In this document: positions 2-7,245 of the stretch, one piece after another | How positions within the stretch are numbered: the first letter of the stretch is position 1 | Layout: every line of letters starts with the position of its first letter | Assembly: GCA_003649615.1 (NCBI GenBank) | Contig: QMSI01000007.1 | Coordinates: 1 to 36,000, forward strand | Reading direction: 5' to 3' | From: Thermoprotei archaeon | GTDB lineage: Archaea > Thermoproteota > Methanomethylicia > Nezhaarchaeales > B40-G2 | DNA: 36,000 bases | Program-made: the position numbers and the translations under genes | Notes under the pieces: model-generated | What the model was told of the DNA's origin: nothing | The model's input: the letters and a program-made list of their open reading frames with translations, nothing else | The model's database searches: none

Positions 2-2206
2 TGGGACATGAAGCTACTTAACCGCTATAAGCCATTCTACGCCCCCTTCTGCGATTTATGCTGTCTCTGCACCTTCGGCAAATGCGACTTAACGGGGGAT
101 AAACGAGGAGCCTGCGGCCTTGACATTAAGGGCCAGACTGCTAGGATTATCCTCATAGCATGCTGTATAGGAGCCTCCACCCACACAGCCCACGCCAGAC
201 ATATGTTGCACTACCTACTCGAGAAGTACGGTCCTGACTACCCCATTAACTTAGGCAGCGAGATAGAGGTGGAGGCCCCTCATATTAGGCTGGTAACTGG
301 CATTAAGCCCAAGACTCTTGGTGACCTCGTCCACGTACTAGACTACTGTGAGGAACAGATAGTTCACTGCGTCGCGGCCATCCACACGGGCCAGGAAGGC
401 AGCTACCTAGACTTCGAATCCAAAGCGCTACACGTGAGTATGATAGACCACGTGGCCATGGAGGTAGCTGACATAGAGCAGATAGTCACCTTCGGGTTCC
501 CCAAGGGAGACCGCGACGCTCCCCTCACCGACATTGGGCTAGGCATTGTAGCCGATGCCACCAAGCCTGTAATCCTGCTCATAGGCCACAACGTATGCTC
601 AGCCGTCGAACTCGTGGACTACATGCGCAAGGTAGGTATAGGTGAACCAGGCGAAACCATAGAAGTAGTTGGAATCTGCTGTACTGCTCACGACATAACT
701 AGGTATACGAATAGAGCCAAGATCATAGGTCCCATATCCTACCAGGTCAAGTTCATTAGGAGCGGGATCGCCGACGTAATAATGGCGGATGAGCAGTGCA
801 TCAGGACCAACATCGTGGACATAGCCGCCGATGTAAAGACCCCGGTAATAGCCGTGTCGGAGAAGGCATGCCATGGCTTACCGGACATGAGCGACGAGCC
901 TGAGGATAAAATAGTGGAAGCCTTGGTGTCGGGTCAGCTTAAGGGAGTACTCATACTGGACTTGGAGAAGGCCGCCTCCGTAGCCGCGAAGGTTGCAGTG
1001 AGGGTAGCTCCGTTAAGGAAGAAGTATAAGGTAATACCTGCGGAAGAGGAGATAGTAAAGGTCGCAGCAAAGTGTACTTACTGCGGCACCTGTTCACGTG
1101 CATGCCCCAACAACCTACCGGTGAGCGATGCGGTAAACGCAGCCAAGAAAGGCGACATAACCAAGCTAGCCATGCTTCACGACGCCTGCGTAGGTTGCTT
1201 ACGCTGCGAGTCGGCCTGCCCACAGGATATACCTGTTCTCAGCTTAATAGAGGCAGCGTCGAGAAAACAGGTATTAACCGAGAAGTTCAAGGTAAGGGTA
1301 GGTAGAGGACCAGTACTAGACACCGAGATACGTGAGGTAGGTAGCCCGATAGTTCTAGGCGAGATACCTGGTGTAGTAGCTCACGTGGGCTGCGGCAACT
1401 ACCCAGGAGCGGGGAGAGACGTAGGTGAGATGGCTTATGAGTTCGCTAAACGAGGCTACATAGTGGTGGCCACCGGCTGCGCCGCCATGAGTATAGCCGA
1501 GTATCGCGACGAAGAAGGGAGGTCGCCCTACGAGGTCTTCCCCGGCGTATTTGACCGTGGAGGCCTATTAAACATTGGAAGCTGCGTCGCCAACTCACAC
1601 ATCACTGGAGCCGCGATCAAGATAGCCAGTATCTTCGCTAGGAGGAAACTAAGGGCTAACTACGAAGAGATTGCTGACTACGTCCTACACCGCGTAGGCG
1701 CTGTGGGAGTGGCGTGGGGCGCCATGTCACAGAAGGCAGCTTCCATCGCCACTGGCTGCAACAGGCTAGGCATACCTGTAATCGTAGGTCCTCACGGATC
1801 CAAGTACAGGAGGCTGTACCTAGGTAGGATTGAGGACGAGGAGAGCTTCAAGGTCTACGACGCTAGGACTGGCCAGAAGGTCTACATCGGCCCAGCACCC
1901 GAGCACCTAATCATGGTGTGTGAGACCAAGGAGGAATGCATGGTCTGGACGGCGAAGCTATGTATTAGGCCTAACGACACCACCAAGGGAAGAATGATCA
2001 AGCTCACCCACTACATAGACCTACACAAGCGCTTCTACGGCAAGCTACCTGAAGACCTACCTCTCCTCGTCAGGACAGAGGCTGATATACCCATCACTTA
2101 CAAGGACGAGGTAATGGAGTTCCTGCAGGCTAAAGGATGGAAGCCTTCAGAGACCCCTGCCATCGACCCGACGCTGCTGGAACGATTGATAAGGGCGAGA
2201 AGGTGA
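2..2206 (+). CDS. cdhA: CODH/ACS alpha subunit (CO dehydrogenase), 5' end outside window
   Basis: Large Ni-Fe CO dehydrogenase subunit of the archaeal acetyl-CoA decarbonylase/synthase complex; it interconverts CO2 and CO and passes CO to CdhC. Numbering from the ATG at 8, a cysteine cluster C15-x2-CC-x-C-x4-C26 (B/D cluster region) is followed by two ferredoxin motifs, CTYCGTC from C356 and CVGCLRC from C394. Candidate C-cluster ligands lie in HVGCG (H459, C462), GCAAM (C491) and GSCVANSH (C526, H531). The frame is open through the window edge, and the residues before M8 (Trp-Asp) continue the family pattern seen ahead of the KLL-x-RY-x-PFYAP motif, so the true start is upstream and about 50-70 residues are probably missing. 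cdhB starts 4 bp after its stop, so the two are co-translated. Confidence 0.97.
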   Translation, partial: WDMKLLNRYKPFYAPFCDLCCLCTFGKCDLTGDKRGACGLDIKGQTARIILIACCIGASTHTAHARHMLHYLLEKYGPDYPINLGSEIEVEAPHIRLVTGIKPKTLGDLVHVLDYCEEQIVHCVAAIHTGQEGSYLDFESKALHVSMIDHVAMEVADIEQIVTFGFPKGDRDAPLTDIGLGIVADATKPVILLIGHNVCSAVELVDYMRKVGIGEPGETIEVVGICCTAHDITRYTNRAKIIGPISYQVKFIRSGIADVIMADEQCIRTNIVDIAADVKTPVIAVSEKACHGLPDMSDEPEDKIVEALVSGQLKGVLILDLEKAASVAAKVAVRVAPLRKKYKVIPAEEEIVKVAAKCTYCGTCSRACPNNLPVSDAVNAAKKGDITKLAMLHDACVGCLRCESACPQDIPVLSLIEAASRKQVLTEKFKVRVGRGPVLDTEIREVGSPIVLGEIPGVVAHVGCGNYPGAGRDVGEMAYEFAKRGYIVVATGCAAMSIAEYRDEEGRSPYEVFPGVFDRGGLLNIGSCVANSHITGAAIKIASIFARRKLRANYEEIADYVLHRVGAVGVAWGAMSQKAASIATGCNRLGIPVIVGPHGSKYRRLYLGRIEDEESFKVYDARTGQKVYIGPAPEHLIMVCETKEECMVWTAKLCIRPNDTTKGRMIKLTHYIDLHKRFYGKLPEDLPLLVRTEADIPITYKDEVMEFLQAKGWKPSETPAIDPTLLERLIRARR

Positions 2207-2210
2207 GAAC

Positions 2211-2762
2211 GTGTCTCTCTTAACTAAACGGGCTTCACCTTGGCAGTGGGGCAACGTCCCTGGACCGAAAATGGCCATGTGCCCCGACAACCCGCCTAGG
2301 ATCTACGCATCGATGATAAAGAGAGCCAAAAACCCCCTACTTATCGTCGGTAGCTACATGTATGAGGTAGAGCTTGGAGGAAAGCCGCTAATAGACTATG
2401 CCATCGAGATATCCAAGAAAGGTAAATGCACCATAATAGCCACCGCTCATACCTTAAAGGGCTTCATAGAGCGCGGGTGTCCAGTCAAAAGCATGAGCCT
2501 CGTAGACATAGTAAATAGGCTCCAAGACCCAACATTCACTGCTGACCCTGCTAAAGCACCTCCCCACGATCTAGTACTATTCCTAGGCATACGTTATGAG
2601 TTCGCCTCTCAAGGGCTAGCTACGCTCAAACACTTCGCTCCGCACCTGAAAACCTTGACGCTATGTAAATGGTACCACCCTAACGCCTCGTGGAGCTTCC
2701 CCAACGTAAAGGACGAGGAGTGGAAGAAGCTTCTAGATGATCTCGTGCAAGCCCTAAGCTAA
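2211..2762 (+). CDS. cdhB: CODH/ACS epsilon subunit
   Basis: Small subunit that pairs with CdhA to form the alpha2-epsilon2 CO dehydrogenase; it has a Rossmann-like fold related to the DHS/FAD-binding family and may bind a flavin or stabilise electron transfer. The 183-residue product carries the family segments PWQ-x-GNVPGPK near the N-terminus, AKNPLLIVGS, ATAHTLKGF in the middle, and YHPNASWSFPN with a following W near the C-terminus. The start is GTG at 2211, with GGTGAG just upstream overlapping the end of cdhA. Length is usual for the family. After its stop there is a spacer of about 150 bp with its own promoter signal before cdhC, so cdhAB and cdhCDE may be separate transcripts. Confidence 0.95.
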   Translation: MSLLTKRASPWQWGNVPGPKMAMCPDNPPRIYASMIKRAKNPLLIVGSYMYEVELGGKPLIDYAIEISKKGKCTIIATAHTLKGFIERGCPVKSMSLVDIVNRLQDPTFTADPAKAPPHDLVLFLGIRYEFASQGLATLKHFAPHLKTLTLCKWYHPNASWSFPNVKDEEWKKLLDDLVQALS

Positions 2763-2917: not shown

Positions 2918-4357
2918 TTGTCATCTTTTGAAGGATTTCCCATGGACGTAGGGCCAGTGTACGAAGGCGAAAGAATCAGGAAGGAAGATATGTACATAGA
3001 GTTTGGAGGGCCGAAAGTTGATGTTAAATGCGAGCTAGTGCTCGCCATGCCCATGGATGAGGTGGAGGATGGGAAGGTAGAGATAGTAGGGCCTGACCTT
3101 AAGGATTTGAAGGAGGGTGGAAGCTACCCACTAGCCATAGTAATCTATACTGCTGGAACCAAGGTAGAGAAAGACTTGGAGGCTGTTATCGAGAGGCGTA
3201 TCCACGACTTCACCAACTACGTTGAAGGGTTCATGCACCTCAACCAGCGCTACGATATCTGGATTAGGCTCAGCAAGAAGAGTGTGAAGAAAGGTCTCGA
3301 TAGCTTAAAATGGTGGGGGCTAGCGCTCATAAGGTTATTCAAGAGCGCCATGCCTTTCATAGAGAAGATGCAGGTAACCTTCTACACCGATCCTGCCAAG
3401 GTTAAGGAGGTCTACGAGCAAGCCTTGGAGGTATACAAGGCGAGAGACGCGAGAGTACGTGGACTACGCGATGAAGACGTAGACACGTTCTATGGCTGCG
3501 TTCTATGTCAAAGCTTCGCTCCTCAACACGTATGTGTCATACCACCCAACAGGGTTTCGCTATGCGGAGCGATGAACTGGTTCGACGCCAGAGCTGCTGC
3601 AAACGTCGATCCTAAGGGCCCCAACTTCCCCATACCTAAAGGGAAGCTCATAGACCCTATCAAAGGCGAGTACGAAGGAGTAAACAAGGTGGTAGAGGAG
3701 CGTTCGCTGGGTGCAAACAAGAGGTTCTTCCTGTATAGCGCCTTTGGAAGCCCGCATACTTCATGCGGCTGCTTCGAGTGTATTGCCTTCTACATTCCAG
3801 AGGTGGATGGCTTCGGCGTGGTCGATAGGGGGTTCAAGGAACCCACCGTTAACGGCTTGCCTTTCTCCACCATGGCTGCCCAGACCGGCGGAGGCATCCA
3901 GACCGAGGGATTCCTGGGCGTTGGGATGGAGTACTTCAGGTCTCCTAAGTTCTTCCAAGCCGATGGCGGTTGGGGAAGGATAGTTTGGATCTGCTCCACA
4001 CTTTGGAAGAGAATTGAGGACGCCATACCTGAGGAGCTGAAAGACAAAATAGCTACCGAGAATGATGCCCGCGACATAGAATCGCTGAAGAAATTCCTCG
4101 TCGAGAGAGGGCATCCATTAGCGGTTAGGATAAAGGAAATGGAGGCTCCGGAAGTAGCAGCTGCTGCTCCAGCCGAGGCTGCAGCCCCTGAAGCTGCAAC
4201 TCCCACAGCTGTTCCCGCTCAGGCTGCTGCGCCCATGCCCTTCATGCCTGCGCCTACAGCACCAGGCGCAATAACCATCCCTGCCGTAGGAGGCTTAAGG
4301 GTAGAGCTTAAAGGAGCGAAGATACGCATCGACAAGATAGTGATCAAGAAGCAGTGA
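2918..4357 (+). CDS. cdhC: CODH/ACS beta subunit (acetyl-CoA synthase)
   Basis: Acetyl-CoA synthase subunit that assembles acetyl-CoA from CO, a corrinoid-bound methyl group and CoA at the Ni-Ni-[4Fe-4S] A-cluster. The 479-residue product has the expected Cys motifs: C194-x2-C197 in GCVLC, then C283-G-C285-x2-C288 in SCGCFEC. A Pro/Ala-rich flexible linker covers about residues 408-450. It ends in a short beta-rich tail (GLRVELKGAKIRIDKIVI) that resembles the following small ORF and the N-terminus of CdhD. The start is TTG at 2918, chosen for AGGAGGGGG at 2901-2909; the next in-frame Met is residue 9. It heads the cdhC-orf47-cdhD-cdhE unit. Confidence 0.97.
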   Translation: MSSFEGFPMDVGPVYEGERIRKEDMYIEFGGPKVDVKCELVLAMPMDEVEDGKVEIVGPDLKDLKEGGSYPLAIVIYTAGTKVEKDLEAVIERRIHDFTNYVEGFMHLNQRYDIWIRLSKKSVKKGLDSLKWWGLALIRLFKSAMPFIEKMQVTFYTDPAKVKEVYEQALEVYKARDARVRGLRDEDVDTFYGCVLCQSFAPQHVCVIPPNRVSLCGAMNWFDARAAANVDPKGPNFPIPKGKLIDPIKGEYEGVNKVVEERSLGANKRFFLYSAFGSPHTSCGCFECIAFYIPEVDGFGVVDRGFKEPTVNGLPFSTMAAQTGGGIQTEGFLGVGMEYFRSPKFFQADGGWGRIVWICSTLWKRIEDAIPEELKDKIATENDARDIESLKKFLVERGHPLAVRIKEMEAPEVAAAAPAEAAAPEAATPTAVPAQAAAPMPFMPAPTAPGAITIPAVGGLRVELKGAKIRIDKIVIKKQ

Positions 4358-4377
4358 AAAGCGCTGTGGGGGAGAGG

Positions 4378-4521
4378 ATGGCCGAGGAACTTAAACTCGA
4401 AGAACTTTTACTTTTACTTGATAAGGCTAAGGAGGTTGAGCTGGAGAACGTGGAGCTGGAAGCTGATCTCTTAGTCCTAGAGTTGCCTTCACCAACTAAG
4501 CAAGGTGGTAAGGGTGGCTAA
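4378..4521 (+). CDS. 47-residue ORF resembling the CdhD N-terminus
   Basis: Short ORF between cdhC and cdhD with ATG at 4378 directly after a GGGGGAGAGG SD. The product starts MAEELKLEELL and contains LDKAKEVELENVELEADL, which lines up without gaps with LDEAKELELRDVEILAEE at the start of CdhD; about 15 of 24 positions are identical across the longer segment. The same pattern, E-L-x2-[A/V]-x-[I/L]-x-[A/I]-[D/E]-x-[I/L]-V, occurs in the last 20 residues of CdhC. It ends in a Gly/Lys-rich tail and overlaps the likely cdhD start by 8 bp, so the two are probably translationally coupled. Function is unknown; the inference is a stand-alone docking or linker peptide of the CODH/ACS complex. It could also be a by-product of a local duplication. 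Confidence 0.65.
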   Translation: MAEELKLEELLLLLDKAKEVELENVELEADLLVLELPSPTKQGGKGG

Positions 4522-5815
4522 GGAAAAGTATCCTAAAGAAGTTAAGTCTTTTTTAGATACTCTAGACGAAGCGAAGGAGCTTGAGCTTAGGGACGTCGAG
4601 ATACTAGCTGAGGAACTTGTTTTACATTTAGTTCCTCAGGCAGCGCAGGCTGTACCTCCATCAGTACATCAAGCTCACGCGTACCTCGAGGAGGCAGTTA
4701 AACTACTTAGGCAGGCCTTAGGAATACCAGCGGCACCGCCTTCTGCCCCCTTAGCTCCGCCAAGTCCACCTGCACCTACCGTGCCTGTACCTGAGCTGGT
4801 GAAGACAGCCTTCGAGCCCCCAGTGTTCAGCTACCCAGGTAGCATAGCGGAGGTTCAGATAGGAGCTACGAGCACTGAGGGAGGGACAAGGGGTAAAGTG
4901 ATAAAGGTAGGCGGCGAGAAATGCCCTCCATTTTATAGGTTTGAGTTTGTACCTCCAAATAGGCCTGTAATAGCCTTAGACGTGTTCGACGTTCTCCCTC
5001 CACTCCCAAAGACCATTAAGAGCTACTATAGAGACGTGCTCAAGGACCATGTGGCTTGGGTTAACAGATGCATAGAGGAGTTCAAGGCAGACCTAGTAAC
5101 CCTACATCTCATAAGCACAGATCCTGCCATTGAAAACAGGCCAGCCGCTGAAGCAGCCAAGTTCGTTAGGAAAGTGCTCGACCAGATCGACATCCCCGTA
5201 ATCGTGGGTGGCTCAGGCAACCCAGAAAAAGACCTCGTAGTGTTCGAGGAGGTCTCCAAGGTAACGAGCGGAGAAAGGCTAGTCATGGCGTCGGTTACCA
5301 TAGACATGGATGTAGCTAAGGCGGCTCAGACGATAAGCCAGCATGGACACAACGTAATAGCACTGGCGTTCTTGGACATCAACCAAGTCAAGGAGCTTAA
5401 CAGGAAGCTGTTGGATGCCGGGATGCCTAAGGACCACATCATAACCGACCCATCCACAGGAGGCTTAGGCTATGGCATAGAGTACACGTTTAGCGTCATG
5501 GAGAGGATGAGGCTGGCTGGGCTCATGGGCGATGAAACCATGCAAGTCCCCATCTCCTGCGCCGCCACCAATGCTTGGGCTGCCAGAGAGGCATGGATGG
5601 AGATGGCTGAGTGGGGTCCTAGAGAGTACCGTGGACCACTATGGGAGATAACCACAGGGTTAGTTAACATGCTTGCGGGCGCCGACCTATTTATGATGCT
5701 CCACCCGCTCGCGGCCATGACGCTGAGGAAGATAGCTGAGGTACTAGCGAAGCCCAAAGTAGAGAAAGAATTGAAGGAGATAGCCTACGAGAAATGGGCT
5801 TCTGCTAAGCTGTAG
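4514..5815 (+). CDS. cdhD: CODH/ACS delta subunit (corrinoid protein small subunit)
   Basis: Corrinoid iron-sulfur protein small subunit; together with CdhE it carries the methyl group from tetrahydromethanopterin to the A-cluster of CdhC. The first 40 residues hold the short beta-rich motif shared with the preceding ORF. Next comes a Pro/Ala-rich linker (about residues 72-95) and then a TIM-barrel domain with typical segments such as RFEFVPPNRPVIALDVFD, VIVGGSGNPEKDL, TDPSTGGLGYG and PISCAATNAWAAREAW. Length is normal. GTG at 4514 is preferred because AGGTGG lies 5 bp upstream; GTG at 4505 would add three residues but has no SD. cdhE follows after 11 bp. Confidence 0.95.
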   Translation: MAKEKYPKEVKSFLDTLDEAKELELRDVEILAEELVLHLVPQAAQAVPPSVHQAHAYLEEAVKLLRQALGIPAAPPSAPLAPPSPPAPTVPVPELVKTAFEPPVFSYPGSIAEVQIGATSTEGGTRGKVIKVGGEKCPPFYRFEFVPPNRPVIALDVFDVLPPLPKTIKSYYRDVLKDHVAWVNRCIEEFKADLVTLHLISTDPAIENRPAAEAAKFVRKVLDQIDIPVIVGGSGNPEKDLVVFEEVSKVTSGERLVMASVTIDMDVAKAAQTISQHGHNVIALAFLDINQVKELNRKLLDAGMPKDHIITDPSTGGLGYGIEYTFSVMERMRLAGLMGDETMQVPISCAATNAWAAREAWMEMAEWGPREYRGPLWEITTGLVNMLAGADLFMMLHPLAAMTLRKIAEVLAKPKVEKELKEIAYEKWASAKL

Positions 5816-5826
5816 GAGGTGGCTTC

Positions 5827-7245
5827 ATGCCTAAGCTTCTAAGACCCTTAGACGTCTACCGACACCTACCTGGAACCAACTGTGGAGAGTGTGGCGAAGT
5901 AAACTGTATGGCCTTCGCTGCCAAGCTCATCGAGAGGCAAAAAGGCATAGAGGACTGCAAGCCTCTCTTTAAGCCCGAGTATAAGGCTAAGCTAGAGAAG
6001 CTATTGGAGGTCCTCCGACCGCCAGTAAAGGAGGTTACCATAGGGGTGGGCGATCGCGCTATAACCGTGGGCGGTAAAGTTTGCGTATATAGACATGAGC
6101 TGACTTGGTATAGGCCGACCGCGCTCTTCTTCGACGTAGATGATGAAATGCCCGAAGATGAGGCCATTAAGAAAGTTAAGTACGTTGAGGACTTCGAGCT
6201 TGAACGTATAGGCGTCAAGCTTAAGCTTAATGGCATTGCTGTGCGGTGCGTATCAGGCAGCCCTGAAAAGTTCGCTAAAAGGGTGGCGAAGATAACCGAG
6301 GTTAGTAACCTGCCTTTAATATTATGCTCGTATGATCCCAACGTCATGGAGGAGGCGCTAATAGTCGTAGGCTCCAAGAAACCGTTGATCTACGCCGCCA
6401 CCAAGGATAACTGGTCTGAGATGATAAAGCTGGCTTCTAAGTATAATTGTCCATTAGCCTTATCGGCACCGGGAGACCTTTCCATGCTTAAGTCGCTAGC
6501 AGCTACCGCTAGAAAAGCTGGGCTAGATGACCTGATCCTAGACCCTGGCACCTTCGTTGAGGGGGATTCCTTCGCCGAGACCATAAACATGTTCACAATG
6601 CTTAGAAGGGAAGCCATAGAGAAGGAGGATAAGGACGTAGGCTACCCGCTCATGGGCGTACCAGCAGCAGTATGGCTATCACCTGAAGGGGACGAAGTGG
6701 CCACTAAGATGAAAGAATGTTACGTAGCTAACGCCTTGATAACAAGGTTCGCTGACCTCTTAGTCATGCATACCATCGATATCTGGGCCCTCCTACCAAT
6801 CTTGGTCTGGAGACAGAACGTTTACACTGATCCACGAGTACCGTTATCGGTGAAGGCAGGGCTCTACGAGATAGGCCTAGTAGATGAAAAAACACCTATC
6901 TTCGTAACTGGGAACTCAGCCTTAACATACTTCTTAGTTAGGGGCGACGTGGAGAAGAGCGGTAAAGGCTACTTAATATGCGTGGACACGGAGGGCATAA
7001 GCGTAGAGTCATCAGTAGCCGGTAGGAGGTTTACGGCTGATAAAGTGGTTGAGGCGTTAAAGGAGGCTGGCATAGAGAATAAGGTTAAGCATAGGACCAT
7101 TATCATACCCGGCAAGGCTGCAAGGATAAGCGGCGAGCTCGAGGACCTACTACAGGGATGGAAGGTGTTCGTTGGCCCTAAGGAATCTTCCGGCATCCCT
7201 GACTTCATCGAGAAAGTGTGGAGCAAGGAAGTTAAGTTCGAGTAA
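5827..7245 (+). CDS. cdhE: CODH/ACS gamma subunit (corrinoid iron-sulfur protein large subunit)
   Basis: Large corrinoid iron-sulfur subunit that binds the cobamide and accepts the methyl group from methyl-tetrahydromethanopterin. The N-terminal [4Fe-4S] motif is visible as C19-x2-C22-x4-C27-x16-C44 in the context NCGECG-x2-NC. A TIM barrel occupies the middle (ALSAPGDL, LDPGTF). The C-terminal part (about residue 350 onward, with FVTGNSALTYFLVRGD) matches the corrinoid-binding domain. ATG at 5827 is preceded by GGAGGT at 5815-5820. It closes the cdh cluster; no CooC-type ATPase gene lies between cdhC and cdhD, unlike the Methanosarcina arrangement. Confidence 0.96.
   Translation: MPKLLRPLDVYRHLPGTNCGECGEVNCMAFAAKLIERQKGIEDCKPLFKPEYKAKLEKLLEVLRPPVKEVTIGVGDRAITVGGKVCVYRHELTWYRPTALFFDVDDEMPEDEAIKKVKYVEDFELERIGVKLKLNGIAVRCVSGSPEKFAKRVAKITEVSNLPLILCSYDPNVMEEALIVVGSKKPLIYAATKDNWSEMIKLASKYNCPLALSAPGDLSMLKSLAATARKAGLDDLILDPGTFVEGDSFAETINMFTMLRREAIEKEDKDVGYPLMGVPAAVWLSPEGDEVATKMKECYVANALITRFADLLVMHTIDIWALLPILVWRQNVYTDPRVPLSVKAGLYEIGLVDEKTPIFVTGNSALTYFLVRGDVEKSGKGYLICVDTEGISVESSVAGRRFTADKVVEALKEAGIENKVKHRTIIIPGKAARISGELEDLLQGWKVFVGPKESSGIPDFIEKVWSKEVKFE

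Follow-up and report, generated by a model that had tools for sequence, protein, structure and literature searches.

The junction between cdhC and cdhD in the archaeal ACDS operon analysed here contains, at positions 4289–4636, three copies of one beta motif of about 17 residues in a common register: one at the end of CdhC, one in an intervening 47-aa ORF, and one at the start of CdhD. On balance, we favour the reading that a heterotypic beta-strand clip joins ACS to the corrinoid protein and that the ORF is an extra, strand-only subunit.

Operon context and motif copies at the cdhC–cdhD junction

The window (the whole stretch of DNA analysed, 36,000 nucleotides of a contig from an archaeal MAG of 1.58 Mb) carries cdhA, cdhB, cdhC, the 47-aa ORF, cdhD, and cdhE in this order (Table 1). 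All five cdh genes gave Pfam/NCBIfam matches and stand in the order A, B, C, D, E, which identifies the locus as an archaeal ACDS operon. The ORF, like the other microproteins described below, matched no Pfam family; as it lacks the PF03599 barrel domain, it does not qualify as a member of the CdhD (delta) family. A Shine–Dalgarno-like sequence, GGGGGAGAGG, precedes the ORF, and a second Shine–Dalgarno sequence, AAGGTGGT, was located at 4502–4509, within the 3' end of the ORF and ahead of GTG 4514, which is probably the CdhD start, giving an overlap of 8 nt with the end of the ORF. An Rfam scan of the window returned no match.

Table 1 Features of the cdh operon and its motif copies in the window
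Feature	Position	Strand	Basis
cdhA, CODH alpha subunit, without motif copy	8..2206	+	Pfam/NCBIfam; six-frame scan
cdhB, CODH epsilon subunit, without motif copy	2211..2762	+	Pfam/NCBIfam; six-frame scan
cdhC, acetyl-CoA synthase beta subunit, with Pro/Ala linker and C-terminal motif	2918..4357	+	PF03598 + PF19436
CdhC C-terminal docking motif GGLRVELKGAKIRIDKIVIKKQ, basic copy	4289..4354	+	Profile comparison, charge count
47-aa ORF MAEELKLEELLLLLDKAKEVELENVELEADLLVLELPSPTKQGGKGG: short helix, acidic motif copy, and 10-residue tail	4378..4521	+	Sequence, profiles, dN/dS
Predicted short helix of the ORF LKLEELLLLLDKA, counterpart of the helix preceding the CdhD motif	4390..4428	+	Sequence, alignment, AlphaFold models
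Motif copy of the ORF EVELENVELEADLLVLELP	4432..4488	+	Profiles, charge, shuffle test
cdhD, corrinoid protein delta subunit	4505..5815, likely start GTG 4514	+	PF03599
CdhD N-terminal docking motif ELELRDVEILAEELVLHLVP, acidic copy, followed by Pro/Ala linker	4577..4636	+	Profiles, charge
cdhE, corrinoid protein gamma subunit, without motif copy	5827..7245	+	Pfam/NCBIfam; six-frame scan

The three copies were aligned without gaps as RVELKGAKIRIDKIVIKK (CdhC), EVELENVELEADLLVLEL (ORF), and ELELRDVEILAEELVLHL (CdhD), and profile comparisons with shuffles placed all of them in the shared register of the motif that we propose for an ACDS docking-strand family, [IVL]x[LF]x[NDGE][AV]x[IVL]x[AIVG]xx[VLI]x[IV]. 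The ORF and the CdhD N-terminus matched at 15 of 31 ungapped positions, with a score of 65 compared to a shuffled mean of 27 and a shuffled maximum of 55 (2000 shuffles); the resemblance reported in the first-pass annotation was thus recovered. The match was significant from the window genome alone (p about 0.0005), and a search of that whole genome with the ORF gave no match beyond the ORF itself and CdhD (E 0.011). In the window genome alone, the evidence for the CdhC tail was marginal (p 0.03 against the ORF and 0.08 against CdhD).

When family profiles were compared using hhalign, the ORF scored 30.6 with the CdhC tail and 39.8 with the CdhD N-terminus, the maxima over 60 column shuffles being 11.0 and 16.1, respectively. 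The comparison of the CdhC tail with the CdhD N-terminus scored 16.4, above all 60 column shuffles (maximum 9.4), but with a probability of only 13%. The profiles and shuffles together bear out the threefold beta motif that had been noticed earlier; two details of that description were corrected, namely the probable CdhD start and the short helix, which precedes the motif in the ORF and CdhD copies and is lacking in the CdhC tail. As an independent check, the NCBIfam model NF003375 (delta subunit) was used: only its first 35 positions matched the 47-aa ORF (E 0.028), and its first 80 positions matched a free-standing ORF of GoM-Arc1 (E 1.5e-13).

Distribution, charge, and free-standing copies in archaea

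The comparison covered 80 named archaeal cdhD loci (Bathyarchaeota, Archaeoglobi, ANME-1, Methanosarcinales, Jordarchaeia, and others) and about 90 Thermoproteota genomes, most of the genomes being MAGs. The tail motif was found in 90 of 91 readable archaeal CdhC tails and the N-terminal motif in all 94 readable archaeal CdhD N-termini; the sole CdhC exception, from Methanoliparum (L056), is adjoined by a detached tail gene. Each of the two motifs is separated from its catalytic domain by a flexible linker. Positions 4, 7, and 12 of the motif hold lysine in CdhC and glutamate in CdhD, and in 76/76 loci from which both cores were extracted the CdhC core was net positive and the CdhD core net negative (mean +3.1 and -5.3, respectively). 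Among 19,701 reading frames examined in a six-frame scan of about 100 loci, the motif occurred only at the CdhC tail, at the CdhD N-terminus, and in small ORFs at the junction, and the presence of further copies in CdhA, CdhB, or CdhE was rejected on this basis. The charge of the free-standing copies ranged from -7 to +3, so these copies may not all share one job.

Within the window's class, the 47-aa ORF was present in four of the 13 genomes with CdhD (G000, G001, G010, and G018), that is, in three genomes besides the window's (relative loci L004, L011, and L012), and it was absent from families f2, f3, and f4. Since most archaea lack the ORF, these families among them, it is not essential to the clip. 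Between the window and G001, whose CdhD proteins are 77% identical, 26 of the 47 ORF residues were identical, and dN was 0.326 and dS 1.44, a ratio of 0.23 (bootstrap 0–0.50). The 47-aa ORF is under purifying selection, as are the free-standing copies of Archaeoglobi and Methanosarcinia. The first-pass annotation had held that absence from all relatives or a near-neutral substitution ratio would point to a chance duplication; neither was found.

The survey of cdhC–cdhD junctions that it had also proposed showed that small motif-bearing ORFs recur in Thermoproteota, Archaeoglobi, Methanosarcinia, ANME-1, Methanoliparum, and GoM-Arc1. Directly 3' of cdhC in about 35 of 59 Archaeoglobi genomes lies the gene of a microprotein of 24-40 residues, such as MEEEVKKVKLILKGAQIHIPELIIEEEE (L171-L200), without a Pfam or NCBIfam match; this gene precedes the cooC ATPase gene, not cdhD, and its 27 distinct cores gave pN 0.225 vs pS 0.84. 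Copies resembling the CdhD N-terminus were found just upstream of cdhD in GoM-Arc1 (free-standing in genomes L074 and L083), ANME-1, and several Methanosarcinia, and several methanogens have two such copies in tandem; the number of small ORFs is uncertain in L206 and L215 because masked (N) stretches lie in or beside the tandem ORFs. Among other Thermoproteota, free-standing copies occur at L027, L042, L052, and L103. Short-frame matches in G260 and G291 were rejected as extra ORFs, being CdhD genes cut by contig ends.

Several variants were observed alongside. At L042:3593-3850, a single small ORF between cdhC and cdhD holds an acidic, CdhD-like copy and a basic, CdhC-like copy, forming a natural fusion. 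In the CdhD proteins of L011 and L012, the docking motif is followed by an additional beta-rich stretch, YLRLTLEPLTPGAQKLEFLLEATPYGVRL (residues about 50-85), and a similar stretch was seen at the C-terminus of the L052 small ORF. A second CdhD homologue, shorter and lacking the N-terminal extension, is encoded at L020 (G002:C5:70387-71304), outside the cdh operon.

In 34 of 120 sampled Methanosarcinia genomes, the motif was found in two short frames and in no CdhC frame of about 470 aa. Full-length reading of nine CdhC genes, spread over seven of these genomes, showed in each case a different, winged-helix-like C-terminal stretch, for which Pfam gives only a sub-threshold DUF7343 match. Adjoining eight of the nine is a gene for a small protein that starts with a KLKLKKK-type sequence and has an Ala/Pro linker and a CdhC-type motif, GIKLILKDAKISIDKVVLAK, and seven of these eight loci encode a second small protein ending in a mixed-charge copy, IELRGASIHVAEVVIK. 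Scored against the CdhC-tail model, the detached tail reached 27–43 bits, and its conservation is strong (pN 0.077, pS 0.54). This group is probably Methanotrichales, and CdhC and its tail are split in the same way in Methanoliparum (L056). Tail-less CdhC with a separate tail protein (M..KLKLKKK start), usually followed by the second, mixed-charge protein, was noted at L216-L223, L225, L226, L214, and L215.

Predicted pairing and competing explanations

The first AlphaFold model was built on L139, whose CdhC tail and CdhD N-terminus were read in one frame through the stop codon as an artificial single chain (21 similar rows). Exactly two strands were predicted, at residues 20–37 and 78–95, each 18 residues long and within the motifs, with a local pLDDT of about 78–85; a short helix precedes the second strand, and the linker is disordered (pLDDT <50). 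Because DSSP strands need partners and no others are present, the CdhC and CdhD motifs pair together in this model, whose whole-chain confidence is low (mean pLDDT 59.7, pTM 0.36) and whose joined chain favours proximity by construction. The second model, joining the CdhC tail and the ORF of G001 (from the window's family), also predicted strands in both parts, but their pLDDT was about 60–70, so the pairing of the ORF with the CdhC tail is only suggestive. A Foldseek comparison of the first model with the PDB gave no match at E <= 10, and a profile search of the PDB with the CdhD N-terminus/ORF motif gave one chance match (E 0.5).

In the mechanism that we favour, the basic strand ending the CdhC linker would pair, by beta-sheet addition, with the acidic strand starting CdhD. 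Tethered in this way to the corrinoid protein, the mobile catalytic domain of ACS could move back and forth between CODH and CFeSP while staying in the complex. A two-stranded ribbon would have exposed edges and a hydrophobic face, a likely place for a third strand. The 47-aa ORF, which has a third copy of the motif, a CdhD-type helix, and no catalytic domain, may be a strand-only small subunit that joins the same beta structure, where it would either add a strand to the exposed face or edge or offer the CdhC tails a second acidic partner. The physical pairing of the CdhC and CdhD strands, the stoichiometry, and the role of the ORF are what we infer.

The idea of a docking strand, first raised from the sequence of the window, is well supported by computation, through the near-universal motifs, the charge opposition, the predicted pairing, the linkers that are absent from bacterial homologues, and the detached tails. 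For the ORF as an extra subunit, conservation, purifying selection, and the recurrence of free-standing copies argue in favour, and the low confidence of its pairing model with the CdhC tail argues against. More tentatively, we put forward that three chains may form the clip: one strand of the basic CdhC type, one of the acidic CdhD type, and, across many archaea, a third contributed by an unannotated subunit of 28–80 residues. The strands would be modular, with whole lineages carrying the CdhC tail on a separate protein.

Alternatively, the ORF product might act as an assembly chaperone or competitor, capping the CdhC tail or mimicking the CdhD N-terminus before assembly or conditionally, and be absent from the finished complex. 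A protein of this kind would suit the sporadic occurrence of the copies, the lack of a catalytic domain and long linker, the full acidic charge of the CdhD-like copies in the window and GoM-Arc1, and translation just ahead of CdhD from overlapping genes. We nevertheless judge it unlikely, given that the Archaeoglobi and Methanosarcinia copies are of mixed charge and deeply conserved, more like a structural element, and that, in lineages with a detached CdhC tail, whatever the tail does must fall to the small protein.

Somewhat more doubtful is a scheme of homotypic contacts, tail with tail and CdhD with CdhD, that would build an 8-fold ACDS particle, with the ORF capping oligomers. The strict opposite net charge of the CdhC and CdhD copies disfavours pairing of like with like, and the joined AlphaFold chain predicts heterotypic pairing; the scheme draws on the eight copies each of beta and gamma-delta in ACDS (PMC11474084), on the ability of a beta motif to self-associate, and on the tandem copies in several methanogens.

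It is very improbable that the ORF is a leader or translational-coupling frame for cdhD with an irrelevant peptide, as its overlap with the probable CdhD start could suggest, since its amino acids are constrained (dN/dS 0.23), it contains the motif itself, and the Archaeoglobi ORF precedes cooC. That the resemblance arose by chance, or that the ORF is a duplicate of the cdhD start now in decay, might be allowed by the shortness of the ORF, its few local residue types, and its absence from several close relatives, but is hardly credible against profile scores far beyond the column shuffles, purifying selection, and an arrangement common to four genomes of the class and recurrent elsewhere.

Relation to known complexes

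The cdhABCDE genes of the window encode the complex known from Methanosarcina as ACDS (alpha-epsilon, beta, and gamma-delta; PDB 9c0s/9c0t). Archaeal ACS has a C-terminal extension of about 75 residues, of unknown function and unresolved in the 2024 cryo-EM work, that is expected to play a part in the movement of ACS between CODH and CFeSP (PMC11474084). Among PDB sequences, the CdhC-tail motif occurs in the M. thermophila beta subunit alone, where it (residues 437–472) lies within the stretch 398-472 that those authors did not resolve; the papers found on the Methanosarcina complex describe neither a pairing partner nor a strand-only small subunit. Contact between ACS and CFeSP was stated to be unseen in any organism, and archaeal CFeSP is stably bound whereas bacterial CFeSP is standalone (PMC11474084). 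The same article cites work in which detergent or limited proteolysis was used to isolate two products, a truncated beta and a beta(gamma-delta) subcomplex. A CODH–ACS–CoFeSP structure of C. autoethanogenum is cited in a later bacterial study (PMC12289521), and the structure of intact ACDS is still awaited (PMC11321310).

The bacterial CODH/ACS with its standalone CFeSP (AcsB, AcsC, and AcsD) shares homologous catalytic domains and the methyl-transfer step with the archaeal complex. However, alignments to bacterial chains in the PDB end at query residue ~402 for ACS and begin at ~103 for AcsD, so that these chains lack the CdhC tail and the CdhD N-terminal extension; the C. autoethanogenum system is likewise without both. 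The zeta subunit of ACDS from Ethanoperedens, to which the GoM-Arc1 archaea are related, is also an extra, lineage-specific ACDS subunit, found by structure, but it is a ferredoxin/F420-reductase protein bound to alpha and epsilon, unrelated to the motif (PMC11493965). No description of a strand-only small ACDS subunit was found in the open-access literature.

Catalytic domains are tethered by terminal modules on Pro/Ala linkers in the E2 peripheral-subunit-binding domains and in the docking domains of polyketide synthases. By analogy, the archaeal motifs may be linker-borne tethers of a similar kind, those modules being mostly helical folds and the one predicted here a beta strand of about 18 residues.

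ACDS cleaves acetate in acetoclastic methanogenesis and fixes carbon in many archaea. Two questions about it are stated to be open (PMC11474084): what keeps ACS attached as it shuttles between CODH and the corrinoid protein, and what role its tail has. The charge-swapped strand pair offers a direct, mutable prediction, and the microproteins would be overlooked subunits of a heavily studied enzyme.
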